DNA of 64,000 bases from Streptomyces sp. NBC_00539 (GTDB lineage Bacteria > Actinomycetota > Actinomycetes > Streptomycetales > Streptomycetaceae): the NCBI RefSeq assembly GCF_036346105.1, contig NZ_CP107811.1:2982501-3046500 (forward strand), read 5' to 3'. A program made the translations under genes and the position numbers. Below the pieces are notes generated by a model that ran no database searches, was not told the origin of the DNA, and worked only from the letters and a program-made list of their open reading frames with translations. Position 1 is the first letter of the stretch. Every line of letters starts with the position of its first letter. Shown here in pieces: positions 28,501 through 47,139 of this stretch.

Positions 28501-28893
28501 CTACCGGGAGGCGAAGGGGGCGTCCGTCGGGACGATCTCGCGGCCCAGCGGGAGCAGGGAGAGCGGGACCATCTTGAAGTTGGCGATGCCGAACGGGATG
28601 CCGATGATCGTGACGCACAGGGCGAGGCCCGTGACGATGTGGCTGATGGCCAGCCACCAGCCGGCCAGGACGAGCCACAGCACGTTGCCGACGCATGAGG
28701 CGGCGCCGGCGTCGCGGCGCTCGACGGTGGTGTAGCCGAAGGGCCACAGGGCGTACAGCGCGATGCGGAAGGCGGCGATCCCGAAGGGAATGCCGATGAT
28801 GGTGACGCAGAGGATCAGGCCCGCGAGGCAGTAGCCCAGGAACAGCCACACGCCGCTGAGTACGAGCCAAATGACGTTCAGAACGGTCTTCAC
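28501..28893 (-). CDS. YccF family membrane protein
   Basis: A 130-residue protein made of two repeats, each with [16 protein letters not shown]- or [16 protein letters not shown]-like helices followed by [13 protein letters not shown]. This duplicated pattern identifies the YccF domain pair. About four transmembrane helices are expected. Function is unknown. The GTG start overlaps the htpX stop by 4 bp (GTGA), so it is the second gene of an htpX operon. Confidence 0.85.
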
Positions 28894-30068: not shown

Positions 30069-31613
30069 CTACTGCGGGAACAGACTGCCCGACGCGAAGC
30101 GCAGCACCAGCTGCGGCGCCCCCGAGAGGATCAGGGCGGTGACCCCGGTGAGCAGGATCGCGACGGTGACGGGCCAGGGCGCCGGGGCGGTGGTGCGCGC
30201 CTGGTCCGCGGCGGCGGGGCGGAAGAGCAGGGCCGTCCAGCGCAGGTAGTAGTACAGGGCGATGACCACATTGACGGCCATGACCACGGCCAGCCACCCC
30301 AGACCCGCGTCGATCGCGGCCCGGAAGACGGTGACCTTGGCGAACAGGCCGATGATGCCCGGCGGCAGGCCGGCCAGGCAGAGCAGGAAGAAGGCCAGCG
30401 TCAGGGCGGCGAGCGGGCGCTCGGCGTACAGCCCGCGGTAGTCGTCGATCCGGTGCAGCGGCTTCGTACGGGCCGCCAGCGCGGCCACGGCGAAGGCGCC
30501 GAGGTTCACGGCGCCGTACATGAGCGCGTAGGCGACGGTGGAGCCGATCTGGTCGCGCTCGGCGTACGCGGCGGCGGCGATCGGCACGAGCAGGTAGCCG
30601 GCCTGTCCGACCGAGGACCAGGCGAGCAGCCGTACGGCGCTGTTCGCGCGGTCGGCGGACTGGCGCAGGGCGGCGACGTTGCCGACGGTCATGGTGAGGG
30701 CGGCGAGGACGGCGAGCGCCGGGCCCCAGATGTCGGAGTACGCCGGGAAAGCGATCACGGTGACCAGGATCAGGCCGGTGAAGCCGACGGCCTTGCCGAT
30801 GACCGAGAGGTAGCCGGCGATGGGCAGGGGCGCGCCGACGTAGGTGTCGGGGACCCAGAAGTGGAAGGGGACGGCGGCCGTTTTGAAGGCGAAGCCGACG
30901 AGGGTGAGGGCGACGCCCGCCATGGCGAGGGTGGTGAGCTGCGCGGGGACGTCTTCGAGGCGGTCGGCGACCTGGGTGAGGTGCAGGGAGCCGGTGACGG
31001 CGTAGACGAAGCTGACGCCGAGCAGCGACACGGCCGTGGCGGTGACGGAGGACAGGAAGAACTTGAGGGCGGCCTCGGAGGAGAGCCGGTCGCCGCGGCG
31101 CATGCCGACGAGGGCGAAGGCGGGCAGCGAGGCGACTTCGAGGGCGACGATGAGGGTGGCGAGGTCGCGGGCGGCGGGCAGCAGGGCCGCGCCGGCGGCG
31201 GAGGAGAGCAGCAGGAACCAGTATTCGCCCGCGGGCATGCGCATCTCGTCGACGGCGGTCAGCGACAGCAGGGCCGTGACGAGGGCGCCGGCCAGGACGA
31301 GGAACTGGATGACGAGCGTGAAGTGGTCGGCGGTGTAACTGCACGCGCCGACATCGCCGGCGAGGCAGAAGGTGGCGCGGTCGCCGGCGCGCAGCGGCAG
31401 CAGGGTGGCGGTCGCGGCGGCGAGTCCGGCGACGGAGAGCCAGCCGAGGAGCGGCTTGTGCCTCTGCGCTGTGAACAGGTCGGCGACGAGTACGACCAGG
31501 GCGACGGCGGCGGGGATCACGACGGGGGCGATCGCGAGCCAGTCGACGGACTGGACGAGGCTGGGCGCGGCCGGGCCGGGGGCCGTGGCGGCCGCGACGG
31601 ACAGGACCGTCAT
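30069..31613 (-). CDS. nuoN: complex I-like subunit N (second locus)
   Basis: A 514-residue antiporter-like membrane subunit. The TM5 Glu (ALEVASLPAFAL), TM7 Lys (AFKTAAVPFHFWVPDTY) and a later Lys in GLFAKVTVF are present. The usual KRLLAYSS motif is altered to VRLLAWSSVGQAGY. About 14 helices are expected. It is the last gene of the ten-gene operon and overlaps nuoM by ATGA. It differs clearly from the canonical-locus NuoN at 59-60.7 kb. Confidence 0.92.
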   Translation of the reverse strand: MTVLSVAAATAPGPAAPSLVQSVDWLAIAPVVIPAAVALVVLVADLFTAQRHKPLLGWLSVAGLAAATATLLPLRAGDRATFCLAGDVGACSYTADHFTLVIQFLVLAGALVTALLSLTAVDEMRMPAGEYWFLLLSSAAGAALLPAARDLATLIVALEVASLPAFALVGMRRGDRLSSEAALKFFLSSVTATAVSLLGVSFVYAVTGSLHLTQVADRLEDVPAQLTTLAMAGVALTLVGFAFKTAAVPFHFWVPDTYVGAPLPIAGYLSVIGKAVGFTGLILVTVIAFPAYSDIWGPALAVLAALTMTVGNVAALRQSADRANSAVRLLAWSSVGQAGYLLVPIAAAAYAERDQIGSTVAYALMYGAVNLGAFAVAALAARTKPLHRIDDYRGLYAERPLAALTLAFFLLCLAGLPPGIIGLFAKVTVFRAAIDAGLGWLAVVMAVNVVIALYYYLRWTALLFRPAAADQARTTAPAPWPVTVAILLTGVTALILSGAPQLVLRFASGSLFPQ

Positions 31614-33187
31614 GAGTTGCCTCCTGCGAGGAGCTTCTGGACGGCCGGGTCGGTGAGGCCGAGGAGGACGGCGGGCCACAGGCCGGCGAGGACGGTGAGG
31701 GCGACGAGCGGGGTCCAGGCGGCGAATTCGTAGTGCTGGACGTCGGCCAGGGAGAGCTCGGGGCCTTCCTTCGGGTCGCCCATGCACACCCGCCGTACGA
31801 CGATCAGAAGGTATGCGGCGGTGAGCAGCGTGCCGAAGGCGCCGACGGCCATGTACGTCAGGAAGGCCGGACGGGACAGGCCCGCGGCCGGGTCGAACGC
31901 GCCGAACAAGGCCAGCATCTCGCCCCAGAAACCGGCCAGGCCGGGCAGGCCGAGGGAGGCGACGGCGGCGAAGGCGAGCAGCGCGCCGAGGCGGGGGGCG
32001 CGGCCGTACAGGGCGGCACCGGTGGCTCCGGCGAGGGTGTCGAGGTCGGCGGTGCCGTAGCGGTCCTTGAGCGCGCCGACCAGGAAGAAGAGCAGGCCGG
32101 TGATCAGGCCGTGGGCGATGTTGGCGAAGAGCGCGCCGTTGACGCCGGTGGGGGTCATGGACGCGATGCCGAGGAGCACGAAGCCCATGTGGCCGACGGA
32201 GGAGTACGCGATGAGGCGCTTGAGGTCGCCCTTGTTGCCCTTGCGGGTCAGCGCGAGGCAGGCGAGGGACCCGTAGACGATGCCGATGGCGGCGAACGCC
32301 CCGAGGTAGGGGGCGAAGGTGTGCATGCCGTCGGGGGTGACCGGGAGCAGGATGCGTACGAACCCGTACGTGCCCATCTTGAGCAGTACGCCCGCGAGGA
32401 GGACGGAGCCGACGGTGGGCGCTGCGGTGTGGGCGTCCGGCAGCCAGCTGTGCAGCGGCCACATCGGGGTCTTCACGGCGAGGCCGATGCCGATGGCGAG
32501 CACGGCCAGCAGCTGGGTGGTGTGGGTCAGTCCGCGGCCGTTGTCAGAGGCGAGTGCCACCATGTCGAACGTGCCGCTGTTCAGTCCGATCAGCAGCAGA
32601 CCGAGCAGCATGACCACGGATCCGAGGAGGGTGTAGAGGATGAACTTCCAGGCGGCTGCCTGCCGCTGAGCACCGCCCCAGCGGGCGATGAGGAAGTACA
32701 TGGGGATGAGGACCATCTCGAAGGCGAGGAAGAACAGCAGCAGGTCGAGGACGGCGAAGGTCGCGAGGGTGCCGGACTCCAGGACGAGGAGCAGTGCGAC
32801 GAAGGCCTTCGGGGAAGGGCCGTCGGGGAGCTTGAAGTAGCTGTAGAGCGCGCACAGGAAGAACAGCAGCGCGGTCATCAGGAGGAGGGGGAGCGAGATG
32901 CCGTCGACGCCGAGGTGGATCCGGATGTTCAGCGCCTGGATCCAGCTGATGTCCGTCGTCGCCTGGAAGCGGGACGGGGTGTCGTGGTCGAAGCCCGCGG
33001 CGAGGGCGATCGCCGCGGCGAGGATCACGCCGGTGACGGTCACGCCGTGGCGCAGCACGGCCTGTTCGGGGCTCTTCCCCCTGAGCCCGGGCGGGGCGGG
33101 CAGCAGGGCCGCGACGGCGCCGAGGAGCGGTGCGGCCACGATGAACGCCAGAAGGAACTGCATCACGGACGGGCTGATATCAATCAC
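31610..33187 (-). CDS. nuoM: complex I-like subunit M (second locus)
   Basis: A 525-residue proton-translocating antiporter-like subunit. It starts at GTG (VIDISPSVMQF). Key residues are visible: Glu in LAFEMVLIPMYF, Lys in AVKTPMWPLHSWLPDAH, and KRLIAYSSVGHMGF. It lies 14 bp after nuoL and overlaps nuoN by 4 bp, so translation is coupled. Confidence 0.93.
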   Translation of the reverse strand: MIDISPSVMQFLLAFIVAAPLLGAVAALLPAPPGLRGKSPEQAVLRHGVTVTGVILAAAIALAAGFDHDTPSRFQATTDISWIQALNIRIHLGVDGISLPLLLMTALLFFLCALYSYFKLPDGPSPKAFVALLLVLESGTLATFAVLDLLLFFLAFEMVLIPMYFLIARWGGAQRQAAAWKFILYTLLGSVVMLLGLLLIGLNSGTFDMVALASDNGRGLTHTTQLLAVLAIGIGLAVKTPMWPLHSWLPDAHTAAPTVGSVLLAGVLLKMGTYGFVRILLPVTPDGMHTFAPYLGAFAAIGIVYGSLACLALTRKGNKGDLKRLIAYSSVGHMGFVLLGIASMTPTGVNGALFANIAHGLITGLLFFLVGALKDRYGTADLDTLAGATGAALYGRAPRLGALLAFAAVASLGLPGLAGFWGEMLALFGAFDPAAGLSRPAFLTYMAVGAFGTLLTAAYLLIVVRRVCMGDPKEGPELSLADVQHYEFAAWTPLVALTVLAGLWPAVLLGLTDPAVQKLLAGGNS

Positions 33188-33201
33188 GGCTGGCTCACGG
33201 C

Positions 33202-35208
33202 TCACGATCCGGCGTTGACGTTGGCGATGACGGCGGTGGCGATGGCCAGGACCACGGCGCCGGCGAGCAGGGCGCTCAGGTAGCTCTGCACGTTGCCGGT
33301 CTGGGCGCGGCGTACGAGGAGGCCGAGCAGCCGGGGGCCGGCGCCCGCGCCGGTGACGTACGTGTCCACCACCTCGCGGTCGAGGAAGCGGACCAGGCTC
33401 GCGGCGCCGCGGACGGGGCGCACGAAGAGCCGGGCGTAGACGGCGTCGAGGTGGAAGCCGTCGGCGGCGTGGCGGAACAGCGGGCCGAGGAGGGCCTTGC
33501 CGGGGTCGGGGGCGGGACCGGCGGGCACGGCCGGGTGGTCGTGGGTGACCTCGGCGACCTCGGGGGTCTCGGCGGCCGACTCCGCGGCGGTGGCGGCGGC
33601 GGGCACCGCGGTCGCATCGGAGGGGGCTCCGGCGGCGGCCTTGGCGGTGGCGCGCTGCCACAGGCCGTAGGTGAGCAGGGCTCCGATGAGTGCGGCGCCG
33701 GTGCCGAGGAGGGAGGTCGTCACGGTCGGGGTGAGCCGGCGGCCGTCGAACCAGTCGGCGATCGGTCCGGCGGCGAGGCCGAAGCCGATCGACGGGATCG
33801 CCAGCAGCCACAGCACGCCGGTCATGGCGAAGGGTTCCCTGCCGTGGTCGGGGGCGGCGGCGCCCCGGCCGCGGAAGGCCATCAGCCACAGGCGGGTGGC
33901 GTAGCCGGCGGTGAGCAGGGCGGTCAGCACACCGGCGACCAGGACGACCCAGCCGGCGGTACTGGGCGCGACGTCGGAGTGGCCGCCGGCGGCGTGTTCG
34001 GCGGCGACGAGGACGGCTTCCTTGGAGAAGAAGCCGGCGAAGGGCGGGATCGCGGCGAGCGCGAGGAGCGCGATCGTCATGGTCCAGAAGGCGTCGGGGA
34101 TGCGCTTGGCCAGGCCGTCCATGCGGGACATGGCGGCCAGGGAGTTCGTCCCGGCGGCGTGGATGATGACGCCCGCGCCGAGGAAGAGGAGTGCCTTGAA
34201 GGCGCCGTGGGACAGGAGGTGGAAGATGGCGGCCCCGCGGTCGCCGACGGCCAGGGCCCCGATCATGTAGCCGAGCTGGCCGACGGTGGAGTAGGCCAGG
34301 ACGCGTTTGATGTCGTCCTGCGCCAGGGCGGCGAGGCCCGAGCCGACCATCGTGACGGCCGCCATGACGGCCATGACCACCAGCGCGGCCCGGGAGGCCG
34401 CGAAGACGGGCAGGAGTCGGGCGATGAAGTAGACACCGGCGGCGACCATCGTCGCCGCGTGGATCAGGGCGGAGACCGGGGTGGGGCCCGCCATGGCGTC
34501 GGGGAGCCAGGTGTGCAGCGGGAACTGCGCGGACTTGCCGGCGACTCCGGCCAGCAGGAGCAGCGCGATCAGCGTCGGGTGGCTCAGGCCCCCGGAGGCG
34601 ACGGCGCCCAGGATCTTGGTGATCCGGAAGGAGCCCGCGTCGGCGGCGAGGGCGAACAGGCCGATGAGGAAGGGCACGTCGCCGAGCTTGGTGACGAGGA
34701 AGGCCTTGAGGGAGGCGGAGCGGGCCGCCTCGGTCTCCCAGTAGTGGCCGACCAGGAAGTACGAGCAGATGCCCATGACCTCCCAGCCGACCAGCAGGAC
34801 CATCAGGTCGCCGGAGTAGACGACGAGCAGCATGGCGGAGGTGAACAGGGAGACCAGAGCCGCGTACGACGGGTAGCGCGGGTCGTCGCGCAGGTAGGCC
34901 GTCGAGTAGATCTGCACGCAGGTGGCGACGACCCCGACGAGGACGGCGACCAGCACGGCGAAGCCGTCGAGGTAGAGGGAGAGGTCGATCGGCACGGAGC
35001 CGGTCGGGGTCAGTTCGGTGGCGGTGTCGATCGCCTTGCCGCCGCCCTGGCGGACGGCGACGAGCACGGCCAGTACGGCGGTGCCCAGCGTCGGCAGCAC
35101 GGCCAGCGGCCGGACGAACCCGGGGGCACGGCGGCCCGAGAGGAGTCCGGCGACTGCGCTCAGGAAGGGGAGGAGGGGGACGAGGACCGCGAGGGTCGTG
35201 GTGCTCAC
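33202..35208 (-). CDS. nuoL: complex I-like subunit L (second locus)
   Basis: A 668-residue distal antiporter-like subunit. Glu143 ([12 protein letters not shown]), Lys225 ([17 protein letters not shown]) and [15 protein letters not shown] are conserved, so the proton path looks intact. A 100-residue Ala/Pro-rich stretch (about 500-560) interrupts the C-terminal region before the long lateral helix and the last membrane helix. GTG start, GTGA overlap with nuoK. Confidence 0.93.
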
Positions 35209-35576
35209 GCGGTGACCTCGCTCTGCTGGTTCGCGGCGGTGGAGGAGTCGGGGGCGGCCGGGGGCTCGTGGCCTTCGGCGGTGTCGCGCAGCCGGTCGAT
35301 GTCCGAGGTGCCCCGGTTGCGGTACACCATCAGCACGATCGCGAGACCGATGCCGATCTCGGCGGCGGCGATGGCGATGGTGAACAGGGTGAGGGCCTGG
35401 CCGGCGTGGAGGGTGTCGCGCATCCAGACGTCGAAGGCCACCAGGTTGAGGTTGACGGCGTTGAGCATCAGCTCGACGGACATCAGGACCAGGATGGCGT
35501 TGCGGCGGGCGAGCACTCCGTACAGGCCGGTGCAGAACAGCAGCGCCGCGAGCACGGCGGGGTAGGCGAGGTGCAT
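35205..35576 (-). CDS. nuoK: complex I-like subunit K (second locus)
   Basis: A 123-residue subunit with three transmembrane helices. The two buried glutamates needed for proton transfer are Glu35 ([18 protein letters not shown]) and Glu73 ([12 protein letters not shown]). A charged tail of about 35 residues after the last helix is longer than usual. Its ATG overlaps the nuoJ stop (TGATG) and its stop overlaps the nuoL GTG. Confidence 0.94.
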
Positions 35577-36241
35577 CAGCGCGGCCCCTTGTCGGTGGGG
35601 CGGTGGGCCGCGGGGCGGGTGCCGGCGGCGCGGGGGGCGGCCGGCCCGGGGTCGCCCGGGCCGGAGTGGCCCGGGTCTGTCCTGCGGGAGAGCACGATGG
35701 CGCCGATCAGGGCGGCGAGGAGCAGGACGGACAGCGCCTCGAAGGGCAGCACCCAGTGCCGGAAGAGGATCTCTCCGGAGACCTTGGTGGAGCCCTGGAC
35801 GGGGCCGTCGAGGTCGATCCAGGTGGTGCGGAAGGCGTCGACGACGACCCACACCAGCGCGGCGGCGGCGACCACGGCGACACCGACCGCGACCGGGCGG
35901 TTGCGGGAGTCGGAGTCCGGGGACGGGCCGATGGGGGCCTTGGTGAGCATCAGCCCGAAGAGCAGGAGGACGATCACGGAACCGAGGTAGATCAGTACCT
36001 GGACCCAGGCGATGAACTCGGCGGTCAGCAGCAGGTACTCGACGGCGATCCCGCCGAGCGCGACGACCAGCCACAGGGCGGCGTGCACGAGCTGCTTGGT
36101 CGTCACGGTGACGGCGGCCGCGCCGAGGGTGGCGAGGCCGACGAGGGCGAAGGCGATCTCGACACCGGTCGGGGACAGGAAACCCGGTCCCGTCGTCGCG
36201 GCCAGGGTGAGGACGGCGGGGCTGAGGACGGCGGGGCTCAC
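35576..36241 (-). CDS. nuoJ: complex I-like subunit J (second locus)
   Basis: A 221-residue subunit with five predicted helices. The family region [32 protein letters not shown] is intact, including the conserved Tyr of helix 3. The first 20 residues and the last 35 ([17 protein letters not shown]…) are Pro/Ala-rich extensions. GTG start overlaps the nuoI stop by 4 bp. Confidence 0.92.
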
Positions 36242-36861
36242 GCGTCTGCCTCCGGCGTGCTGTCGGCGCCCGGTTCGGCAGCGGGCTCGGTGGTGGTCGG
36301 CTCGGCGGCAGCCGCGGCAGCAGCAGCGGCCGCGGCGGCAGCAGCTTCGGCCTTCTCCACCGCCTTGCGGGCGGCGGCGACTTCCTTCGGCTCCTCGGCG
36401 GCCGGGTCCAGGGCGGGCGGGGCCGGCACGGTCCACATCCATTCGCGCAGCTTGTCGCGCTCGTGGGTGAGTTCCAGGATGTCCGTCTCCGCGTACTCGA
36501 ACTCCGGCGACCAGAACAGGGCGTCGAAGGGGCACACCTCGATGCAGATGCCGCAGTACATGCAGAGGGAGAAGTCGATGGCGAAACGGTCGAGGACGTT
36601 GCGGCTGCGCTCGCGGCCGCCGGGGGCGGCGGCCGGCACCGTCTCCTTGTGGGAGTCGATGTAGATGCACCAGTCGGGGCACTCACGTGCGCACAGCATG
36701 CAGACTGTGCAGTTCTCCTCGAACAGGCCGATGACCCCACGGCTGCGGGGCGGGAGCTCGGGCTGCACGTCGGGGTACTGGGCGGTGTGCGAGCGCTTCG
36801 TCATCGTGCGCAGGGTGACGGCCAGCCCCTTGGCGAGGCCGGAACCGGGGATGGGGGGCAT
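36238..36861 (-). CDS. nuoI: complex I-like subunit I, 2[4Fe-4S] (second locus)
   Basis: A 207-residue ferredoxin-like subunit. Both [4Fe-4S] motifs are complete: Cys51/54/57/61 and Cys100/103/106/110, each followed by Pro, so it can hold clusters N6a and N6b. After the conserved domain a tail with a run of about 15 alanines and a Thr/Glu/Pro end is unusual. Its ATG overlaps the nuoH stop (TAATG). Because NuoE, F and G are missing, NuoI is the likely entry point for electrons. Confidence 0.93.
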
Positions 36862-37829
36862 TACTGGATCGCCACCTTCACGATGCCGGTGAGCGCGATC
36901 TGGGCGAGCGCGAGGGGGATGAGTACGGTCCAGGCGAGCTTCTGGAGCTGGTCCTCGCGCAGTCGCGGGTAGCTCACGCGGAGCCAGATCACCACGAAGG
37001 CGAGGACCGCGACCTTGAGGAGGGTCCAGACCCAACCGAGGCCGTCGGCGCCGAAGGGGCCGTGCCAGCCACCGAGGAACAGGACGGTGGTCAGGGCGCA
37101 GAGGACGACGATGCCGGCGTACTCGGCGAGCAGGAACAGCGCGAAGCGCAGGCCGGTGTACTCGGTGTACGCGCCGAAGATGATCTCGGAGTCGGCGACG
37201 GGCATGTCGAAGGGGGGCCGCTGGAGTTCGGCGAGGCCGGCGGTGAAGAAGACGACGGCGCCGACGATCTGCCAGGGCAGCCACCACCACTGGAACTCTT
37301 CGAGGATGCCGGGCAGGGACACGGTCCCGGCGGCCATGGCGACCGAGGCGGCCGCGAGCAGCATGGGCAGCTCGTACGCGAGGAGCTGGGCGGCGGTGCG
37401 CAGGCCGCCGAGCAGGGAGAACTTGTTGGCGGAGGCCCAGCCGGCCATCAGGCTGCCGAGTACGCCGACGCCCATGACCGCGAGCGCGAAGAAGAGCCCG
37501 GCGTCGATGACCTGGCCGACGGCGCCCTTGCCGGGGCCGAGGGGGATCACGATGAGGACGAGGAGGTACGGGAGCAGCGCGACGGCGGGGGCGAGCTGGA
37601 AGATCCGGCGGTCGGCGTTGGCCGGGACGACGTCTTCCTTCTGCGCGAACTTCACTCCGTCCGCGACGAGCTGTGCCCAGCCGTGGAAGCCGCCGGCGTA
37701 CATGGGGCCGAGGCGGCCCTGCATGTGGGCCATGACCTTGTGCTCGGTCTGGCCGACGACGAGCGGGAGCACGAGGAAGACGGCGAAGACGAGGACCAGG
37801 CGCAGGGCGACGTCGAGTACGTCGTTCAC
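36861..37829 (-). CDS. nuoH: complex I-like subunit H (second locus)
   Basis: A 322-residue membrane subunit that normally forms the quinone chamber with NuoB and Nuo[37 protein letters not shown] and [18 protein letters not shown] match the family. The loop reads [10 protein letters not shown], where many NuoH proteins have an acidic LPEAE-type motif (from memory). GTG start, GTGA overlap with nuoC. Confidence 0.92.
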
Positions 37830-39031
37830 GCGTCGCCTCCATCGTGGTGGTCGGGGGTGGTGCCGTCGGACGGGTCGTCCGCGGCGGGCTCGGGCGGAAC
37901 GGGGTCGTCCGCGGCGGGCTCGGGCGGAACGGGGTCGCCTGCCGCGGGCTTCGGCGGGGCCGGGTCCTGTGCCGCGGGCTTCGGCGGGGCCGGGTCCTGT
38001 GCCGCGGGCTTCGGCGGGGCCGGGTCCTGTGCCGCGGGCTTCGGCGGGGCCGGGTCCTGTGCCGCGGGCTTCGGCGGGGCCGGGTCTTCGAAGGCGGGCT
38101 TCGGGTCGTGCCACGGAGCGTCTCGGCCGGCCGGCGGCTTCGCGGTGGGGGTCTCCGCCCCCGGCGCGGGCACCTGCCCGGCGGCAGGGCTGCCCTCGCC
38201 GGGCGGGGTCGCCTGGCTCGCCGAGCCCTGTGACACCGAACGCGTACGGCGGGCCGGGCGCGGGGCCGGGGCCTCGGCCGGAGCGCCCTCCACCGGGGTC
38301 GCCTGGCTCGCCGAGCCCTCCGACACCGAACGCGTACGGCGGGGTGCGCGGGGCGGCGCGGCGTCGGCGGGGGCGTCCGTGGACGCCGGGCCCGGACGGC
38401 GGGTCGGGGCGCCGGCGCGGGGGGTGCGGGCCGGCCGGGCAGGGGCCGGCGGGAGCTGGCCCTTGAGCGGGCCCCAGTCGTTCGGGTCGGGCACTCCCGG
38501 CGGCAGCATCTGCCGCCGCTTCGGCGCGTCCGGGTCGTGTGCCTCGCCCGGCTCCTTGGCACCCGGCCACGCCTTGGCCACGCGCGCCGCCAGGACGAAG
38601 TCCTTGCGCAGCGGGTGGCCCTCGAAGTTCTCGGGAAGCAGCAGCGGCACCAGGTGCGGGTGGTCGGTGAAGGTCACCCCGAACATCTCGAAGGTCTCCC
38701 GCTCGTGCCACTCCGCGCCCGCGTAGACCGCGACCGCCGACGGCAGCGACGGCGCCGCGTGCGGAACCGTCGTCCGCAGCAGGAGGCGACGTACCCGGTG
38801 GCCCTCCAGCGCGACGACGTGCGCGCAGATCCGCAAGCCCGTGCCCGGCTCGTCCACCGCGCTCAGCCAGTCGAAGTAGGTGCAGCCCAGCTTGTCGCGG
38901 GCGATCTCCAGCGCCGGGATCCAGGATCCGACGGGCACGTCGACCGTGAGGACGTCGTACGCGGACGAGCCGACGGCCTCGGCTCCGAAGACCGTCGGGG
39001 CGGCGTCGGGCAGGGTGTCGTAGAGGTTCAC
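37826..39031 (-). CDS. nuoC: complex I-like subunit C with long repetitive tail (second locus)
   Basis: A 401-residue product. The first ~190 residues are a normal NuoC domain, with [12 protein letters not shown] and [18 protein letters not shown] ending GHPLRKDF. The remaining ~200 residues are Pro/Ala-rich, low complexity, and end in [10 protein letters not shown] decapeptide repeats. No NuoD domain is fused. The tail is in frame to the stop and the stop overlaps nuoH, so it is genuinely coded. It could be an extended linker or surface tether. GTG start overlaps the nuoB stop. Confidence 0.92.
37871..38110. repeat. 30-bp tandem repeat inside nuoC
   Basis: Eight consecutive 30-bp units in frame with the gene. 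Four (37961-38080) are identical (CGGGTCCTGTGCCGCGGGCT plus TCGGCGGGGC), while the outer units diverge. Each encodes ten residues on the minus strand, mostly [10 protein letters not shown] with [10 protein letters not shown] variants at the C-terminal side. Confidence 0.95.
38205..38343. repeat. two 49-bp near-identical units inside nuoC
   Basis: 38205-38253 and 38295-38343 agree at 47 of 49 positions with a 90-bp period. Each contains GGGGTCGCCTGGCTCGCCGA and CACCGAACGCGTACGGCGGG. On the coding strand they give RTRSVS[E/Q]GSASQATP. Confidence 0.85.
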
Positions 39032-39651
39032 TTCCCCGCCCCCTCGGCGGCGGGCGGCGCGACCAGGCCGCTGGTGAGCTGGGCGACCGAGGAGCCGGCG
39101 GTGGCGTAGCGGTCGGCGAGCGACTCCCTGGCGATCTTCTCCTGGAGCTTGAGGATCCCCTGGAGCAGCGCCTCGGGACGCGGCGGGCAGCCGGGGACGT
39201 AGACGTCGACGGGGATGATCTGGTCGACGCCCTTCGTCACCGCGTACGAGTCCCAGTAGGGGCCCCCGCAGTTGGAGCAGGCACCGAAGGAGATGACGTA
39301 CTTCGGCTCCGGCATCTGCTCGTAGAGCCGCTTGACGGCCGGGGCCATCTTGTCCGTGACGGTCCCGGAGACGATCATCAGGTCCGCCTGGCGCGGGCCG
39401 GGCGCGAACGGGATGACGCCGAGCCGGATGAAGTCGTGCCGGGCCATCGACGCGGCGATGAACTCGATCGCGCAGCAGGCCAGGCCGAAGTTGAAGACCC
39501 ACAGGCTGTACCGGCGGCCCCAGTTGAGGACCACCTTCATGGGTTCGGGGGCCAGCCGGGAGAGCACGCCCAGCCTCTTCGGCTCCGGCAGGAGCTCCGG
39601 GACGGTCACGGCCGGGCCAACGGCCGGTGTGGGGGCGGGTGTCACGTCCAT
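39028..39651 (-). CDS. nuoB: complex I-like subunit B, cluster N2 (second locus)
   Basis: A 207-residue subunit carrying the terminal [4Fe-4S] cluster N2. The expected ligands are present: tandem Cys59-Cys60 (LACCAIEF), Cys125 (GACSN) and Cys155 (PGCPP); Cys128 is extra. N2 can therefore be built even though NuoD is not encoded here. ATG overlaps the end of nuoA by 10 bp. The last 20 residues are Ala/Pro-rich. Confidence 0.94.
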
Positions 39652-40049
39652 TCGAGGACGCCCTTCTTGTACGCGTAGAGCAGGCCGACGGCCAGGAAGC
39701 CCAGGAAGACGAACATCTCCACGAGCGTCGTGGCGCCGTAACCGGCGGCGGCGAAGACCGTCGCCCACGGGAAGAGGAAGATCGAGTCGACGGCGAAGAT
39801 GACGTAGAGGAAGGCGTAGACGTAGTAGCGGACCTGGGTGTGCGCCCAGCCCTCGCCCACCGGGTCCACGCCGCATTCGTACGTCAGCAGCTTTTCGGGG
39901 GTGGGGACCACGGGCCGCAGCAGACGGCCGGCGCCGAAGGCCACGGCGACGAAGAGCACGCCGAGTACGGCGAGCAGGCCGACGACCGAATAGCTTCGGA
40001 AGTAGTCCGCCGCGAGCTCGTTTACGGTCGATACCGTTGGGTCGGGCAC
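39642..40049 (-). CDS. nuoA: complex I-like subunit A (second locus)
   Basis: A 135-residue subunit with three helices and the conserved loop [40 protein letters not shown]. The start is the GTG at 40049 with GAGGA upstream. The reading upstream of it is rejected. It is the first gene of the operon and is divergent from the first histidine kinase gene, with 156 bp between them. Confidence 0.93.
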
Positions 40050-40128
40050 GTCCGTTCCTCGCTCCTCGGCCACTGTCGACGATCTGGATGATCTGGTACG
40101 CACGGGAGTCTAGAGCCTGGGCCACGGC

Positions 40129-40145
40129 GGGTGGGGTTATCCCCC
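40129..40145. promoter_or_regulatory. shared motif, site A (nuo operon / kinase 1)
   Basis: GGGTGGGGTTATCCCCC, a near-palindrome, lies in the divergent gap, 80 bp from nuoA and 60 bp from the kinase gene. A nearly identical sequence lies upstream of the second kinase gene (41705-41721). Confidence 0.5.
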
Positions 40146-40205
40146 GTTCACCGCGGGCGGGCCACCCCATGGCATCGGGAGTGCGCAGTTGGCAGGCTGT
40201 GGCGC

Positions 40206-41399
40206 ATGGACGCCAGCAGCCGCACCCCAGATGACGACCGCCCTCCCCGAGTCCGGGGCCCCTTCGACGCCTCGACGTGGAGGGAGATCGCGTACCTGCT
40301 GATCAATCTGCCGGTGGCGTTGATCGGTTTTGTTTACACGGTTGTCATGGTTGCGGCGACGGGTGCGCTGTCCGTGACCGTGGTCGGACTGCCGTTGCTC
40401 GTGTGTGGTCTGTGGGGAGCACGGCAGCTCGGGAAGCCGGAGCGCGCGCGGGCGCGGACGCTGCTCGGGATACGGGTGGACGAGCCGACGCCGATACCGG
40501 GGCCGGGACGGTCCGGCGGGTTCTTCCCCTGGCTGTGGACGGGCATCAAGGATCCGGTGGCCTGGCGGACCGTGCTGTACGCGCTGGTCCGGCTGCCGTG
40601 GGGACTGCTGACTTTCAGTATCGCGCTGGTCGGGCTGTTCGTGCTGTGGCCGGTGCTGCCGTGGCTGGTGCGCGCCCTGGCCAATGCGGACCGGGCGATG
40701 GTACGGGGCCTGCTGTCGCCGTCCGACGGGCTGGAGCGGCGCATCGCGGAGCTGGAGTCCGGGCGGGGGGTGGTCGTGGACACGGCCGCCGCCGACCTGA
40801 GGCGGATCGAACGGGACCTGCACGACGGGGCGCAGGCGCGGCTGGTGGCGCTGGCCATGGGGCTGGGCCTGGCGAAGGAGAAGCTGCTGGAGGACCCGGA
40901 CGCGGCGGCGGCCATGGTGGACGAGGCGCACGGGGAAGTGAAGATCGCCCTCCAGGAGCTGCGGGACCTCGCGCGCGGGATCCATCCGGCGGTGCTGACG
41001 GACCGGGGGCTGGACGCGGCGCTGTCGTCGGTGGCGTCGCGGTGTCTGGTGCCGGTGGACGTGGCGGTGGACCTGCCGGGGCGGCCGGCGGCGGCGATCG
41101 AGGGGATCGCGTACTTCGTGGTGTCGGAGCTGCTGCAGAACGTGAGCAAGCACGCGGGGGCCGGGGCGGCGAGCGTGGAGGTGTGGCGGGCCGACGGCCA
41201 CCGCGGTGGGGGCCGGCTGCTGCTGAGGGTGTCGGACGACGGGCGGGGCGGAGCCGATCCCCTGGCCGGGGGTGGGTCGGGGCTGGGGGGGCTCGCCGAG
41301 CGGGTGGGGGCGGTGGACGGGGTGTTCGTGGTGGACTCGCCGCCCGGCGGGGGGACCGTGGTGACGGCGGAGCTGCCGTGGCGGGACCGCGAGGCGTAG
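40206..41399 (+). CDS. sensor histidine kinase 1 (HisKA_3 type)
   Basis: A 397-residue kinase. The N-terminal half resembles the 'putative sensor' domain with two pairs of hydrophobic segments ([40 protein letters not shown]) and little extracellular sequence, so it may sense the membrane or redox state. The phospho-acceptor is His206 ([10 protein letters not shown]), the N box includes Asn312 ([10 protein letters not shown]) and the G1 box reads SDDGRGGAD. It has no clear ribosome site, so it may be leaderless. It is 40-50% like kinase 2 by eye. Confidence 0.9.
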
Positions 41400-41704
41400 G
41401 CCGCCGGCGGTTGGCGGGCGGTTGCGCTGCCCTGCCGGGCCGGGTTCCGTGCGGCGCCGCTGCGCTGCGGGGCCGGGTTCCGTGCGGCGCCGCTGCGCTG
41501 CGCGGAACCCGGCTGCGCCGGGCTTTCTGGGGCTCCGCCCCAGGCCCCGCGCCTCAAACGCCGGCGGGGCTGGAATGGCTCGGCGGGGCCGGGATGTAGC
41601 CCGGGGCTGGAGTCGGCTCGGCCATGACGGGCCGTATCCCCGGGCTGGAGCCGGCTCGGCCGGGCCAGGACGCACCCCCGGGGCTGGAGTCGGCTCGGCC
41701 GGGG
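41400..41704. repeat. repeat-filled gap between the two kinase genes
   Basis: Two copies of about 33 bp containing GGGCCGGGTTCCGTGCGGCG (41437-41502) are followed by the dispersed repeat at 41519-41575. Then come several GGGGCTGGAGTCGGCTCGGCC-like units, roughly 45-50 bp apart (41564-41702). There is no protein-like frame. Confidence 0.75.
41519..41575 (+). repeat. dispersed intergenic repeat, copy 3
   Basis: CTGGGGCTCCGCCCCAGGCC followed by CCGCGCCTCAAACGCCGGCGGGGCTGG, nearly identical to 19937-19995. Confidence 0.75.
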
Positions 41705-41721
41705 GGTGGGGTTAACCCCCC
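41705..41721. promoter_or_regulatory. shared motif, site B (kinase 2)
   Basis: GGTGGGGTTAACCCCCC contains the perfect palindrome GGGGTTAACCCC. It starts 102 bp upstream of the kinase 2 start. It matches site A at 15 of 16 core positions. A weaker relative (GGAGAATTCCCCAC) is at 43103-43116 upstream of the response regulator. Confidence 0.5.
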
Positions 41722-41806
41722 GGGGGACAGGCCCACGTGCCGGATGGTTTGGGCAGGTGGGCGGCGGGAGGCTGGGGGTACCGAGAAGACACGGAGGGGT
41801 GGGGAC

Positions 41807-43096
41807 ATGGCCGGCGGCAGTGGGGTGTGGCGAGTGGTGCGGGGGCCCGTGGCGGGGCGGACCTGGAAGGAGTTCGGGTACCTGATCACCGGGTTCCCGC
41901 TGGCGTTGCTGTACTTCGGGCTCACCGTCGCCGGGCTGAGCATCGGCGCCGGGTTGCTGGTCACCTTCCTCGGGGTGCCCGTGCTGGCCGGGGTGCTCGC
42001 GATGGGCCGGGGCTTCGGCCGGGTGGAGCGGGCCCGGGTGCGCGGGCTGCTGGGCGGACGGCTCGGGGAGCCGGCGCCGATCCGGGCCCGCAAGCCGGGG
42101 GCGTTCGCCGCCATGGGGGCCGTGCTCAAGAGCGGGAGTGCCTGGCGGCACGTCCTGTACCCGGTGCTGCACTTCCCCTGGGCGATGTTCGGGTTCACCC
42201 TGGCACTGGTGTTCTGGGCGTGCGGTTGGGCCATGCTGCTCTATCCCCTGTACTTCTGGGTCTTCCCGGCCTTCACCGACCAGCCCGGGCTGATCGTCTT
42301 CCAGAACGACAGCTACGCCTTCTACCTGGACTCCCCCGCGGCCATCGCCGCCACCGCCGCGGCCGGCCTCGCCCTCACCCTCGCCACCCCGTGGGTGATC
42401 CGCGCCCTGACCACCGTCGACCGCGTCCTGGTGACCTCCCTCCTCGGCCCGTCCCGCCTGGACAGCCGCGTCAGCGAGCTGGAGTCCGACCGCGGTGCGG
42501 TCGTGGACACGGCCGCCGCCGACCTGCGCCGGATCGAGCGCGACCTGCACGACGGGGCCCAGGCGCGTCTGGCGGCCCTGGCCATGGATCTCGGGCTGGC
42601 CAAGGAGAAGCTGGCCGAGGACCCGCGGAGCGCCGCCCGGATGGTGGACGAGGCGCACGGCGAGGTGAAGATCGCCCTCCAGGAGCTGCGGGACCTGGCC
42701 CGCGGGATCCATCCGGCCGTCCTCACCGACCGGGGCCTCGATGCGGCGCTGTCCTCGGTGGCCGCGCGGTGCGCGGTACCGGTGAAGGTGGCGGTGGAGC
42801 TGCCGGAGCGGCCGTCGGCCTCGGTCGAGGGGATCGCGTACTTCACCGTCTCGGAGCTGCTCCGGAACATCAGCAAGCACGCGCGGGCCCGTAGCGCGAG
42901 CGTCGACGTGTGGCGGTCGGGGGACCGGCTGCTGCTCCAGGTGAGCGATGACGGCCGGGGCGGTGCGGACGCACGGGCGGGGACGGGGCTCGCGGGGCTC
43001 GCCGGGCGGCTGGACGCGGTGGACGGGGCGCTGGCCGTCGACTCCCCCGCCGGCGGGGGCACGACCGTGACCGCCGAGGTGCCCTGGCGCGCGTAG
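41807..43096 (+). CDS. sensor histidine kinase 2 (HisKA_3 type)
   Basis: A 429-residue paralogue of kinase 1 with the same domain order. The sensor half has helices LITGFPLALLYFGLTVAGLSI, ALVFWACGWAMLLYPLYFWV and AAIAATAAAGLALTLATPW, and a longer extracytoplasmic loop than kinase 1 (FPAFTDQPGLIVFQNDSYAFYLD). The catalytic half is nearly the same: [33 protein letters not shown] follows GGAGGGGTGGGG. Probably cotranscribed with the response regulator 123 bp downstream. Confidence 0.9.
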   Translation: MAGGSGVWRVVRGPVAGRTWKEFGYLITGFPLALLYFGLTVAGLSIGAGLLVTFLGVPVLAGVLAMGRGFGRVERARVRGLLGGRLGEPAPIRARKPGAFAAMGAVLKSGSAWRHVLYPVLHFPWAMFGFTLALVFWACGWAMLLYPLYFWVFPAFTDQPGLIVFQNDSYAFYLDSPAAIAATAAAGLALTLATPWVIRALTTVDRVLVTSLLGPSRLDSRVSELESDRGAVVDTAAADLRRIERDLHDGAQARLAALAMDLGLAKEKLAEDPRSAARMVDEAHGEVKIALQELRDLARGIHPAVLTDRGLDAALSSVAARCAVPVKVAVELPERPSASVEGIAYFTVSELLRNISKHARARSASVDVWRSGDRLLLQVSDDGRGGADARAGTGLAGLAGRLDAVDGALAVDSPAGGGTTVTAEVPWRA

Positions 43097-43219
43097 CCGG
43101 TCGGAGAATTCCCCACTTGGCCCGGACTCCTCGGTTCCGGGCCATCGGGCTGGGATGCTTGGCCCAGCCGGTGATCAGCGGGGTTCCGGCCTACGAGTGG
43201 ACGCGGGAGCTGCTGAGTC

Positions 43220-43891
43220 GTGGAAGACAGGGTGCGGGTGGTCATCGCCGAGGATTCAGTGCTGCTGCGTGAGGGCCTGACCCGGCTGCTGACCGACCGG
43301 GGGCATGACGTCGTGGCGGGCGTCGGGGACGCGGAGGCCCTGGTCAAGACGGTGGCGGAGCTGGACGCGGAGGGTGCCCTGCCGGATGTGGTGGTGGCCG
43401 ACGTGCGGATGCCGCCGACGCACACCGACGAGGGGATCCGCGCGGCGGTGCGGCTGCGCCGCGATCACCCGGGGATGGGCGTCCTCGTGCTGTCGCAGTA
43501 CGTGGAGGAGCAGTACGCCACCGAACTGCTGGCCGGTTCCACCACGGGGGTGGGGTACCTGTTGAAGGACCGGGTGGCCGAGGTACGGGAATTCCTGGAC
43601 GCCGTCGTGCGCGTCGCCCGGGGCGGCACCGCCCTGGATCCCGAGGTGGTCGCCCAGCTGCTCGGACGCAGCCGCAAGCAGGACGTGCTCGCGGGCCTGA
43701 CGCCGCGCGAGCGCGAGGTGCTGGGGCTGATGGCCGAGGGGCGCACCAATTCGGCGGTGGCCAAGCAGCTCGTGGTGAGCGACGGGGCGGTGGAGAAGCA
43801 CGTCGGGAACATCTTCATGAAGCTCGGCCTGTCCCCCAGTGACGGGGATCACCGGCGCGTACTGGCCGTTCTCACCTATCTGAGGTCCTGA
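43220..43891 (+). CDS. NarL/LuxR family response regulator
   Basis: A 223-residue two-component regulator. The receiver domain has Glu11/Asp12, the phospho-acceptor Asp61 (VVADVRMPP) and Lys in YLLKDR. The LuxR helix-turn-helix spans about residues 155-215 ([25 protein letters not shown]…[14 protein letters not shown]). It is the only regulator next to two kinases, so both may signal to it. GTG start; a Shine-Dalgarno sequence is not obvious. Confidence 0.92.
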
Positions 43892-43912
43892 TCGACTGAC
43901 ACTCTTTCAGAC

Positions 43913-43953
43913 GAGACGGCCGGCGCGTCCCCACCGACGCACCAGCCCGTCTC
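43913..43953 (+). terminator. terminator of the two-component operon
   Basis: Outer stem GAGACGG / CCGTCTC with inner GCGTC / GACGC pairing, 21 bp after the response regulator stop. Confidence 0.6.
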
Positions 43954-43999
43954 GAGGGCCGCACCGTCGGCGGTGCGGCATATTCGCGTATGGCACGGC

Positions 44000-44014
44000 G
44001 TCTGTCGGACAGAC
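44000..44014. promoter_or_regulatory. candidate operator upstream of korAB
   Basis: GTCTGTC-G-GACAGAC, a perfect 7-bp inverted repeat, followed by another GTCTG arm at 44016-44020. It lies 110 bp upstream of the korA start, a normal promoter-proximal position. Confidence 0.45.
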
Positions 44015-44123
44015 CGTCTGCGAAACGACGGTCCAGAATACGGGCGACCCAGGGAGCGAGCGGCCTGACGGACGTAGAGTTGACCTTGGGAGCGAACGCC
44101 CGCCTCGAAGGAGGTCCAGTTCA

Positions 44124-46073
44124 GTGACCAGCCAGGTCAGCAGCCCAGCCGAGCAGGCCGACGGGGCCGGAGAGTCCGTCGTCGGCGAGCAGCGCACGCC
44201 ACCGCGACCAACCGGGGGCGGCAAGGAGATCCGCCGTCTCGACCGCGTGATCATCCGCTTCGCGGGTGACTCGGGTGACGGCATGCAGCTCACCGGAGAC
44301 CGCTTCACTTCGGAGACGGCGTCGTTCGGGAACGACCTTTCCACGCTGCCGAACTTCCCGGCCGAGATCAGGGCGCCTGCCGGCACTCTTCCGGGTGTCT
44401 CGTCGTTCCAGCTGCATTTCGCGGACCACGACATCCTGACCCCCGGGGACGCGCCGAACGTGCTGGTGGCGATGAATCCGGCGGCGTTGAAGGCGAACAT
44501 CGCCGATGTGCCGCGCGGCGCGGAGATCATCATCAATACGGATGAATTCACCAAGCGCCCGATGGCGAAGGTGGGCTACGAGACCTCCCCCCTGGAGGAC
44601 GGCTCCCTTGCGGCGTACAACATCCACCCGGTGCCGCTCACGACGCTGACGGTGGAGGCGCTCAAGGACTTCGGGCTCTCACGGAAGGAGGCCGAGCGCA
44701 GCAAGAACATGTTCGCGCTGGGCCTGCTGTCGTGGATGTACCACCGGCCGACGGAGGGCACCGAGGCGTTCCTGCGGAGCAAGTTCGCGAAGAAGCCGGA
44801 CATTGCCGAGGCGAACGTGACGGCGTTCCGGGCGGGCTGGAACTTCGGGGAGACGACCGAGGACTTCGCGGTCTCCTACGAGGTCGCCCCCGCCACCCGC
44901 GCCTTCCCGACCGGCACCTACCGCAACATCTCGGGGAACCTGGCCCTCGCCTACGGGCTCATCGCCGCAGGTCAGCAGGCTGATCTGCCGCTCTATCTGG
45001 GCTCGTACCCGATCACGCCCGCCTCGGACATCCTGCACGAGCTGAGCAAGCACAAGAACTTCGGCGTGCGGACCTTCCAGGCCGAGGACGAGATCGCCGG
45101 CATCGGCGCGGCCCTCGGCGCGGCCTTCGGCGGCGCCCTGGCGGTGACCACCACCTCCGGCCCCGGTGTCGCCCTCAAGTCCGAGACCATCGGCCTCGCG
45201 GTCTCGCTGGAGCTGCCGCTGCTGATCGTGGACATCCAGCGCGGCGGGCCCTCCACGGGCCTGCCCACCAAGACGGAGCAGGCCGATCTGCTCCAGGCGA
45301 TGTACGGGCGCAACGGCGAGGCCCCGGTGCCGATCGTCGCGCCCCGCACCCCGGCGGACTGCTTCGACGCCGCTCTGGACGCGGCGCGGATCGCGCTGAC
45401 CTACCGCACGCCCGTCTTCCTGCTCTCCGACGGTTACCTCGCCAACGGCTCCGAGCCCTGGCGGATCCCGGAGGTCGCCGACCTGCCCGACCTGCGCACC
45501 CGGTTCGCCGCCGCCCCGAACCACACCCTGGCCGACGACACCGAGGTGTTCTGGCCCTACAAGCGGGACCCGGAAACCCTGGCCCGCCCCTGGGCCGTCC
45601 CCGGCACCCCCGGCCTCGAACACCGCATCGGCGGCATCGAGAAGCACGACGGCTCGGGCAACATCTCCTACGACCCGGCCAACCACGACTTCATGGTCCG
45701 CACCCGCCAGGCCAAGATCGACGGGATCACCGTCCCGGACGTGGAGGTCGACGACCCGGACGGGGCCCGCACGCTCGTCCTGGGCTGGGGGTCCACGTAC
45801 GGCCCCATCACCGCCGCCGTCCGCCGTCTGCGCGCCGCCGGCCTGCCCGTCGCACAGACCCACCTGCGCCACCTGAACCCGTTCCCGAGGAATCTCGGTG
45901 AGGTCTTGGGGCGTTACGACAAGGTAGTGGTGCCGGAGATGAACCTCGGGCAGCTGGCCACCTTGATCCGGGCGAAGTACCTGGTGGACGCCCAGTCGTA
46001 CAACCAGGTCAACGGAATGCCCTTCAAGGCGGAGCAGCTCGCGAAGGTTCTCGAGGAGGCCATCAATGACTGA
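44124..46073 (+). CDS. korA: 2-oxoacid:ferredoxin oxidoreductase subunit alpha
   Basis: A 649-residue fused gamma-alpha subunit of the KorAB type. It oxidises a 2-oxoacid, probably 2-oxoglutarate, to the acyl-CoA and reduces ferredoxin. The gamma domain begins near VIIRFAGDSGDGMQLTG (residues about 41-57), and the alpha (pyrimidine-binding) domain near GNLALAYGLIAAG with YPITPASDI and TTTSGPGVALKSE. The GTG start has GAAGGAGG upstream. It overlaps korB by 8 bp. Mycobacterial KorAB supports the CO2-dependent TCA variant, so a link to ferredoxin-based respiration is plausible here. Confidence 0.92.
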   Translation: MTSQVSSPAEQADGAGESVVGEQRTPPRPTGGGKEIRRLDRVIIRFAGDSGDGMQLTGDRFTSETASFGNDLSTLPNFPAEIRAPAGTLPGVSSFQLHFADHDILTPGDAPNVLVAMNPAALKANIADVPRGAEIIINTDEFTKRPMAKVGYETSPLEDGSLAAYNIHPVPLTTLTVEALKDFGLSRKEAERSKNMFALGLLSWMYHRPTEGTEAFLRSKFAKKPDIAEANVTAFRAGWNFGETTEDFAVSYEVAPATRAFPTGTYRNISGNLALAYGLIAAGQQADLPLYLGSYPITPASDILHELSKHKNFGVRTFQAEDEIAGIGAALGAAFGGALAVTTTSGPGVALKSETIGLAVSLELPLLIVDIQRGGPSTGLPTKTEQADLLQAMYGRNGEAPVPIVAPRTPADCFDAALDAARIALTYRTPVFLLSDGYLANGSEPWRIPEVADLPDLRTRFAAAPNHTLADDTEVFWPYKRDPETLARPWAVPGTPGLEHRIGGIEKHDGSGNISYDPANHDFMVRTRQAKIDGITVPDVEVDDPDGARTLVLGWGSTYGPITAAVRRLRAAGLPVAQTHLRHLNPFPRNLGEVLGRYDKVVVPEMNLGQLATLIRAKYLVDAQSYNQVNGMPFKAEQLAKVLEEAIND

Positions 46074-47139
46074 CGTGACCGACGCGCCGACACCGTCGCT
46101 GCTCTCGCTGGTGCCCAAGGCCCAGGCCAAGCAGTCGATGAAGGACTTCAAGTCGGACCAGGAGGTCCGCTGGTGTCCGGGCTGCGGTGACTACGCCGTG
46201 CTGGCCGCCGTGCAGGGCTTCATGCCCGAACTCGGCCTGGCGAAGGAGAACATCGTCTTCGTCTCGGGCATCGGCTGCTCCTCCCGCTTCCCGTACTACA
46301 TGAACACGTACGGGATGCACTCCATCCACGGCCGCGCGCCCGCCATCGCCACCGGCCTGGCCACCTCGCGCCGCGACCTGTCCGTCTGGGTCGTCACCGG
46401 CGACGGCGACGCCCTGTCCATCGGCGGCAACCACCTCATCCACGCCCTGCGCCGCAACGTCAACCTCAAGATCCTGCTGTTCAACAACCGGATCTACGGC
46501 CTCACCAAGGGCCAGTACTCGCCCACTTCGGAGCTCGGCAAGATCACCAAGTCCACGCCGATGGGCTCCCTCGACGCCCCCTTCAACCCGGTCTCGCTCG
46601 CGCTCGGCGCCGAAGCCTCCTTCGTGGCCCGCACCGTCGACTCCGACCGCAAGCACCTCACCGAGGTGCTGCGCCAGGCGGCCGACCACCGGGGCACCGC
46701 CTTGATCGAGATCTACCAGAACTGCAACATCTTCAACGACGGCGCCTTCGAGGTGCTCAAGGACCAGGAGCAGGCCCAGGAGGCCGTGATCCGCCTCGAA
46801 CACGGACGGCCGATCCGGTTCGGCGTCGACGGCCACAAGGGCGTCGTGCGCAACCAGGCCACCGGTGACCTGGAGGTCGTCGCCGTCACGCCGGAGAACG
46901 AGGCGCGGATCCTGGTCCACGACGCGCACGCGGCGAGCCCGACGACCGCCTTCGCCCTCTCCCGCCTCGCCGACCCCGACACGCTCCACCAGACGCCCAT
47001 CGGCGTCTTCCGCGACACCGACCGCCCGGTCTACGACACCCTCATGGCCGACCAGCTCGACACCGCGATCGACCAGCGCGGCAAGGGCGACCTGACCACG
47101 CTGCTGACCGGCAACGACACCTGGACGGTCGTTGGCTGA
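46066..47139 (+). CDS. korB: 2-oxoacid:ferredoxin oxidoreductase subunit beta
   Basis: A 357-residue thiamine diphosphate and iron-sulfur subunit. The TPP motif is GDGDALSIGGNHLIHALRRN followed by LLFNNRIYG. Cysteines that can bind one [4Fe-4S] cluster are in RWCPGCGDY, SGIGCSSRF and YQNCNIFND. With korA it makes a two-subunit enzyme without a fused ferredoxin, so a separate ferredoxin is needed; none is encoded in the window. It ends convergent to the HxlR gene. Confidence 0.92.
   Translation: MTDVTDAPTPSLLSLVPKAQAKQSMKDFKSDQEVRWCPGCGDYAVLAAVQGFMPELGLAKENIVFVSGIGCSSRFPYYMNTYGMHSIHGRAPAIATGLATSRRDLSVWVVTGDGDALSIGGNHLIHALRRNVNLKILLFNNRIYGLTKGQYSPTSELGKITKSTPMGSLDAPFNPVSLALGAEASFVARTVDSDRKHLTEVLRQAADHRGTALIEIYQNCNIFNDGAFEVLKDQEQAQEAVIRLEHGRPIRFGVDGHKGVVRNQATGDLEVVAVTPENEARILVHDAHAASPTTAFALSRLADPDTLHQTPIGVFRDTDRPVYDTLMADQLDTAIDQRGKGDLTTLLTGNDTWTVVG

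Follow-up and report, generated by a model that had tools for sequence, protein, structure and literature searches.

Introduction

Streptomyces species carry a second nuo gene set whose nuoD2 lies apart from it, as is stated in PMC3765725 (2013) and PMC8388888 (2021). According to PMC3765725 this set lacks the genes of the NADH module (N-module), and the data given there suggest a single operon, while PMC9239103 calls the function of nuo2 unclear and suggests a hybrid machinery. For the 11-subunit enzyme of Desulfitobacterium, ferredoxins have been proposed as the feed (PMC11238625), and KorAB of Mycobacterium tuberculosis is a two-subunit 2-oxoglutarate:ferredoxin oxidoreductase that is aerobically stable (PMC2773412). 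All papers named here are cited from extracts of their text. We have analysed a nuo2 locus of Streptomyces sp. NBC_00539, contained in a stretch of 64,000 nucleotides (the window; G000:C1:2982501-3046500, contig NZ_CP107811.1); the genome measures 7.5 Mb and comprises two contigs. The locus spans 40103-30069, where ten nuo genes are read from the minus strand as A B C H I J K L M N, and the genes of a KorAB-type enzyme lie next to it. With a probability of about 0.7, we propose that nuo2 supplies ten subunits of an eleven-subunit complex I without N-module, that a NuoD2 encoded far from the operon is the eleventh, and that the enzyme is fed by KorAB, reduces menaquinone and pumps protons.

Results

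The separate nuoD2 gene

Pfam and NCBIfam scans detected no nuoD, nuoE, nuoF or nuoG within the nuo2 operon. A family search of the whole genome for NuoD, however, returned two genes, the canonical NuoD and a stand-alone, intact NuoD2 gene of 380 amino acids at G000:C1:3928671-3929810. Its distance to nuoA2 is approximately 0.91 Mb, and no further nuo genes were found next to it in this genome. The original prediction, that nuoD, E, F and G are missing from the operon, is therefore correct locally, and for nuoD it does not extend to the genome. Taken together, nuo2 and nuoD2 encode all of NuoA, B, C, D and H to N, which is the complete gene complement of an 11-subunit complex I without N-module.

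NuoD2-type genes are present in 118 of the 121 genomes of the genus (117 near full-length at 86-100% identity, one partial), and the three genomes without one are draft assemblies, in about 460, 810 and 1300 contigs. For the class (Actinomycetes), NuoD2, NuoB2 and KorA were tallied among the matches listed, and presence was set at ≥600 bits for NuoD2 and ≥299 bits for NuoB2. Over 296 class genomes, 70 carry both NuoD2 and NuoB2, 3 NuoD2 alone, 3 NuoB2 alone and 220 neither (Fisher p ~3e-60, kinship ignored); outside the genus the figures are 42 with both, 3 and 3 with a single gene and 220 with neither. Four families (f17, f19, f26, f33) include some genomes with both genes and others with neither. 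All six mismatches come from draft assemblies with 230-470 contigs. They were checked for chance absence: all three NuoD2-only genomes (G125, G152, G169) carry NuoH2, G169 has a partial NuoB2 as well, G140 has a partial NuoD2, and G134, G140 and G222 are 72-80% complete.

Ancestry of the operon

In other classes of the phylum, nuoD2 lies inside an operon of the order A-B-C-D-H-I-J-K-L-M-N, without E, F or G, in 14 of 20 fetched loci (complete with eleven genes in 13, A to L in the other); the remaining six are one short contig with nuoD2 alone and five other complex I types. Within the class, 20 genomes of other families (stretches of 12-20 kb) and twelve further stretches showed none of nuoA, B, C, H, I, J and K near NuoD2. 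NuoD2 is likewise present in 0 of 80 stretches centred on NuoI2, the best 80 of at least 514 relatives, 79 of which have NuoH2 in the stretch and one of which starts near a contig end. A quick NuoD tree of 60 rows, which omits six near-identical NuoD2 sequences from the genus, was evaluated by the Shimodaira-Hasegawa-like approximate likelihood ratio test (SH-aLRT) only. Its NuoD2 clade contains 52 rows (SH-aLRT 99) with the linked genes forming a grade, and the unlinked nuoD2 of the class form one clade (SH-aLRT 100) nested inside that grade. Because the linked grade encloses the unlinked clade, the ten-gene operon with its distant nuoD2 descends from an eleven-gene operon without N-module, which nuoD2 would have left in an ancestor within the class.

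Co-inheritance and the linked relatives therefore argue for an 11-subunit complex with a displaced nuoD. A true ten-subunit enzyme without any NuoD, the label given to this locus by the original prediction, would agree with an operon that contains no nuoD, but since NuoD2 is encoded elsewhere in the genome, is co-inherited with NuoB2 and is linked in relatives of other classes, we see next to no chance for it. The original prediction had also considered that NuoD might be borrowed from the canonical locus; a dedicated NuoD2 groups with nuo2 instead. Could the nuo2 subunits nevertheless mix with the canonical complex, its NuoD1 and its NADH module, as alternative parts? Such a hybrid was proposed for S. 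coelicolor in PMC9239103, and a regulated swap of NuoL/M isoforms is discussed in PMC8388888. The existence of a co-inherited NuoD2, the derivation of the whole set from a free-standing eleven-gene operon and the identity of just 27-50% between nuo2 subunits and their canonical paralogues, subunit against subunit, make mixing improbable.

Two observations concern the surroundings of stand-alone nuoD2 genes. In four loci (L048, L050, L056, L066) they lie near folP-, folB- or folK-like genes, named by eye, and in L055 (G147) antiporter-family genes with 30% identity to NuoM1 and 42% to NuoL2, perhaps of an Mrp system, stand beside nuoD2.

Gene content of nuo2 and absence of an NADH module

All ten nuo2 genes are matched by Pfam and NCBIfam families, and their positions, like those of korAB, agree with the original prediction. 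Adjacent genes overlap by 1-10 bp, with one exception if nuoM2 starts at 33187, which is 14 bp after nuoL2. The genes are, in order of transcription:

39642..40103, minus strand: nuoA2, Oxidored_q4 (Pfam); alternative starts 40073 or 40049
39028..39651, minus strand: nuoB2, Oxidored_q6 and NuoB families, alignment; cluster N2 cysteines, GGPYWDSY
37826..39031, minus strand: nuoC2, Complex1_30kDa; long Pro-rich repeat tail
36861..37829, minus strand: nuoH2, NADHdh; altered loop of ten residues
36238..36861, minus strand: nuoI2, Fer4 and NuoI families; two 4Fe-4S motifs, ninth Cys (CPDWC)
35576..36241, minus strand: nuoJ2, Oxidored_q3
35205..35576, minus strand: nuoK2, Oxidored_q2
33202..35208, minus strand: nuoL2, Proton_antipo_M and Proton_antipo_N
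31610..33205, minus strand: nuoM2, NDH_I_M above cut-off; start possibly 33187
30069..31613, minus strand: nuoN2, Proton_antipo_M; NDH_I_N match below its cut-off

The first genes of the canonical nuo operon, which has its own NuoD, E, F and G, lie at 59-64 kb of the window and the rest beyond it. NuoE and NuoG have one family match each in the genome, both canonical, and no second copy of either was found. An extra NuoF-family protein, encoded at another locus (L229:5729-7177), carries a fused single-cluster ferredoxin domain; as this unrelated fusion is the sole extra member of the family, a separate NADH module elsewhere was rejected. Without NuoE, F and G of its own, nuo2 is not a 14-subunit NADH:quinone oxidoreductase. 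The original prediction had named as evidence against itself a nuoD elsewhere that groups with the locus, accompanied by matching NuoE-G homologues; the former exists and the latter were not found.

The nuoC2 tail contains tandem repeats of 30 bp and longer (window 37871-38137) with Pro/Ala/Asp-rich coding, and a second repeat of 90 bp is located at 38204-38375. An M48 (HtpX-like) protease gene follows nuo2 (window 28890-29753); M48 homologues are found downstream of full and reduced clusters alike in many relatives and may belong to the gene set.

Redox centres, pump residues and quinone site

By alignment, the cysteines of cluster N2 in NuoB2 and the cluster cysteines of NuoI2 are present in the window proteins, in line with the original prediction. 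The GGPYWD motif of NuoB2 occurs in 47/47 class sequences, and a ninth Cys (CPxWC or CPxKC), absent from canonical NuoI1, in 44/44 class sequences of NuoI2. The Glu/Lys positions compared in NuoK2, L2, M2 and N2, which we take to be the proton-channel residues, equal those of the canonical paralogues, and this bears out what had been claimed for NuoL and NuoM. Two further peculiarities that had been pointed out are also real. In the NuoH2 loop, the first Glu of PFDxPE is replaced by Val, Ile or Leu in all 17 intact class relatives and by Val or Ile in all 14 linked relatives of other classes. NuoN2 reads AVRLLAWSS where NuoN1 of the same genome reads DVKRLLAYSS.

To describe the quinone site, NuoD2 was aligned to Nqo4 of Thermus thermophilus, so that His38 corresponds to His29 and the Tyr87 position to Trp78 of NuoD2. 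The NuoD2-clade set consisted of 58 proteins (15 from other classes, 26 of the full form and 17 of the reduced form described below) and the outgroup of eight (three canonical, five other NuoD). The Tyr87 position is Trp in 58/58 clade members and Tyr in 8/8 others. Arg84 is kept in 58/58 clade sequences, the His169 position is His in 58/58 as against 1/8 of the others, and His38 is kept in 41/41 linked and full forms and in 14/17 reduced forms. Trp at the Tyr87 position points to a mode of acceptor binding, or a chemistry, other than that of standard complex I. Five loci (L220-L224) represent further complex I types with Tyr87 in other genomes of the phylum. Two of them, L222 and L224, show A-B-C-D-H-I-J-K-L-M-N without E, F and G in the stretch yet have the Tyr, and absence of NuoE-G alone was dropped as a predictor of Trp87; L221, also of the Tyr type, has Val in the NuoH PFDxPE loop.

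The same complex with the same donor might thus deliver electrons at N2 to an acceptor other than menaquinone, with Trp78 and the altered loops accommodating a different oxidant and an optional membrane arm. The invariant Trp fits this, as do the reduced forms, which keep Trp78, Arg75 and His160 with relaxation of the loop around His38 and of position 130. In addition, MBS, which has neither of the quinone residues, reduces polysulfide at its proximal cluster (PMC7684303) and so shows that a change of acceptor can happen. The retention of His38 at the frequencies given above and of NuoH and the pumps in the full forms speaks against it, and we consider another acceptor unlikely, though worth keeping in mind.

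Reduced forms

A cluster reduced to nuoB-nuoC-nuoI was found in 30 loci spread over 15 family codes, with no membrane genes in 29 and remnants in one; nuoD2 is retained at a distance, and one locus (L088) ends at a contig end after nuoC. L105 of G229 proved to be a canonical locus and is not counted here. NuoH2 was searched for in 42 genomes, among them 29 of the 30 with a reduced locus (G290 lies outside this set). Ten have NuoH2, 30 only a canonical-like NuoH at ~40% identity, G149 broken remnants, and G177, an incomplete genome, gave no match. Partial clusters (L178, L160, L074) were seen in Tetrasphaera australiensis, with C, H and I only, in Phycicoccus avicenniae, with no A or B in the stretch, and in G149, whose nuoH2 remnant has an internal deletion.

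The cysteine motifs of NuoB are present in 30/30 reduced loci (in one only after start-codon correction), both cluster motifs in 29/29 reduced NuoI, and the divergent NuoB, C and D of three reduced-form genomes exceed the Pfam cut-offs. The first Cys of NuoI is preceded by 12-31 residues in 25/29 reduced proteins versus 45-65 in 15 full forms; the other four have 45, 50, 93 and 95, the last two probably owing to the choice of start. In reduced NuoD several residues between 20 and 41 are relaxed, and at position 130 Glu or Asp is seen in 5/17, as compared to Glu in 26/26 full forms. Loss of His38, seen in just 3/17, was dropped as a trait of the reduced form. Judged by their location, the decayed parts should be those that touch the membrane arm.

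On the NuoD tree the reduced state requires three origins, one in G149, one shared by G274 and G136, and one in a clade of 14 whose branches are in part long. As several reduced rows are long-branched, three is the minimum forced by the starred branches, and it is less certain that the 14 belong together. Loss of A, H and J-N is presumably a simpler direction than gain, since the full form keeps the canonical gene order. Many relatives thus seem to have lost the pump and retained just the part that carries electrons, in most cases next to a ferredoxin-type enzyme. This may be an actinomycete complex I stripped to a four-subunit, soluble or peripheral NuoB-C-D-I, in which electrons would come mostly from KorAB and end at N2 without a membrane arm, and which would have arisen at least three times from a pump-bearing, nuo2-like form; the proposal could equally prove right or wrong. 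As the membrane-side segment of NuoI and the quinone-cavity loop of NuoD decay, with the wire, Trp78 and the surroundings of N2 kept, the acceptor would have to be reached without NuoH. Docking of the reduced module on the canonical membrane arm is conceivable, and the shortened NuoI speaks against it.

KorAB as a probable electron donor

The genes divergent from nuo2 are:

40131-41399 and 41624-43096, plus strand: two histidine kinases (domain scan), between nuo2 and korAB
43220-43891, plus strand: response regulator (domain scan), between nuo2 and korAB
44124..46073, plus strand: korA, with POR_N, POR and PFOR_II
46066..47139, plus strand: korB, with TPP_enzyme_C

Based on its POR and TPP domains, KorAB of the window is predicted to be a two-subunit 2-oxoacid:ferredoxin oxidoreductase. 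In S. coelicolor, AbrC adjoins SCO4599-4608 (PMC9739823), and by position the two kinases and the regulator correspond to the AbrC1-C3 system.

A korA gene lies in the stretch of 21/30 reduced loci, always divergent and 103-2353 bp from the NuoB match, and of 10/17 full-form loci outside the window's genome, again always divergent, at 426-8471 bp; some reduced and full loci without korA are cut by contig or stretch ends. Among the NuoI2-centred loci the count is 56/80. In two B-C-I clusters without korAB (L086:8500-10946 and L087:4640-7028) the neighbour is, by eye, a CorA-type transporter-like gene.

The original prediction had electrons enter at NuoI, perhaps from KorAB or ferredoxin. The missing second NuoE and NuoG and the divergent korA fit this, and an exclusive pairing with KorAB does not hold, as set out below. 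KorAB or ferredoxin is a plausible donor; KorAB is likely the main one, with other ferredoxin-producing enzymes being possible. In our proposal, KorAB would oxidize a 2-oxoacid and pass electrons to NuoI2, directly or via ferredoxin; these would run through the two NuoI2 clusters to N2 in NuoB2 and on to menaquinone in the cavity of NuoB2, NuoD2 and NuoH2, and menaquinone reduction would drive proton pumping by NuoL2, M2 and N2 in the full form.

Complex I-type enzymes are reversible. The proton-motive force could therefore lift menaquinol electrons to ferredoxin for carboxylation by KorAB or other low-potential work, and korAB indeed adjoins the complex in many genomes. However, forms without a membrane arm, which could not be driven in this way, stand beside korAB just as often (21/30), and reverse running is in our opinion very improbable.

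Several observations weigh against a KorAB-fed, menaquinone-reducing pump. No KorA match was listed for 10 of 117 genomes with NuoD2-like genes, two of them full-form (G241, G359), two of the KorA matches among the NuoD2-like genomes (G303, G307) are weak, and a KorA match was listed for 126 genomes without such genes; the pairing is therefore not exclusive. Three genomes without NuoD2 (G157, G174, G204) have korA ~20 kb from the canonical nuoB1, so that its nearness to nuo2 may in part be a legacy of older gene order. The membrane arm was lost repeatedly, which indicates that pumping is dispensable in relatives, and with Trp at the Tyr87 position and the first NuoH-loop Glu lost, the usual route of menaquinone reduction is not assured.

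Discussion

Now that NuoD of the second complex I in Streptomyces has been located, and the enzyme assigned to a clade marked by a distinct quinone-site signature, experiments can target the right subunits. The invariant Tyr87-to-Trp exchange opens the function of the quinone tyrosine to experimental tests, and repeated pump loss with the redox core kept provides natural deletion experiments on the peripheral arm alone. Actinobacterial KorAB, an oxygen-stable ferredoxin-type enzyme of aerobes, gains a candidate electron acceptor.

The second Streptomyces nuo set and the separate position of its nuoD2 have been published before. Neither the Trp87 clade nor its linked ancestor nor a NuoBCDI module next to korAB came up in the open-licence literature searched, including the extracts of PMC12361115 and PMC4859585; the ancestry, the Trp87 and the pump-less form were thus not found in these searches.

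Comparison with known systems

The closest match is nuo2 with nuoD2 of Streptomyces (SCO4599-4608), which agrees in gene content and arrangement: a single operon, N-module genes missing, nuoD2 elsewhere. The available text of PMC9239103 describes nuo2 without NuoC and NuoL, whereas nuo2 of the window has both. The extracts on this system contain nothing on the linked ancestor, Trp87, co-inheritance or relatives that lack the pump. KorAB of M. tuberculosis shares the family and the two-subunit make-up of the window KorAB; in PMC2773412 the string "nuo" occurs 0 times. The enzyme of Desulfitobacterium hafniense and the core of cyanobacterial NDH-1 resemble nuo2 in having the core subunits without NuoE/F/G and a proposed ferredoxin donor, and nuo2 differs from them in its displaced nuoD, the Trp at the Tyr87 position and the korAB neighbour.

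MBS, the sulfane sulfur reductase, is likewise related to complex I, has a modified quinone site and is ferredoxin-fed (PMC7684303). In contrast to MbsJ, which according to the extract lacks it, NuoB2 contains the adjacent CC pair, and both NuoD2 and NuoB2 fit complex I/NDH chains better than those of MBS. The best matches of NuoD2 are complex I/NDH chains (2.5e-81, compared to 2.7e-53 for MBS), with MBS and MBH far lower, which places NuoD2 with complex I/NDH and not with the MBS/MBH kin.

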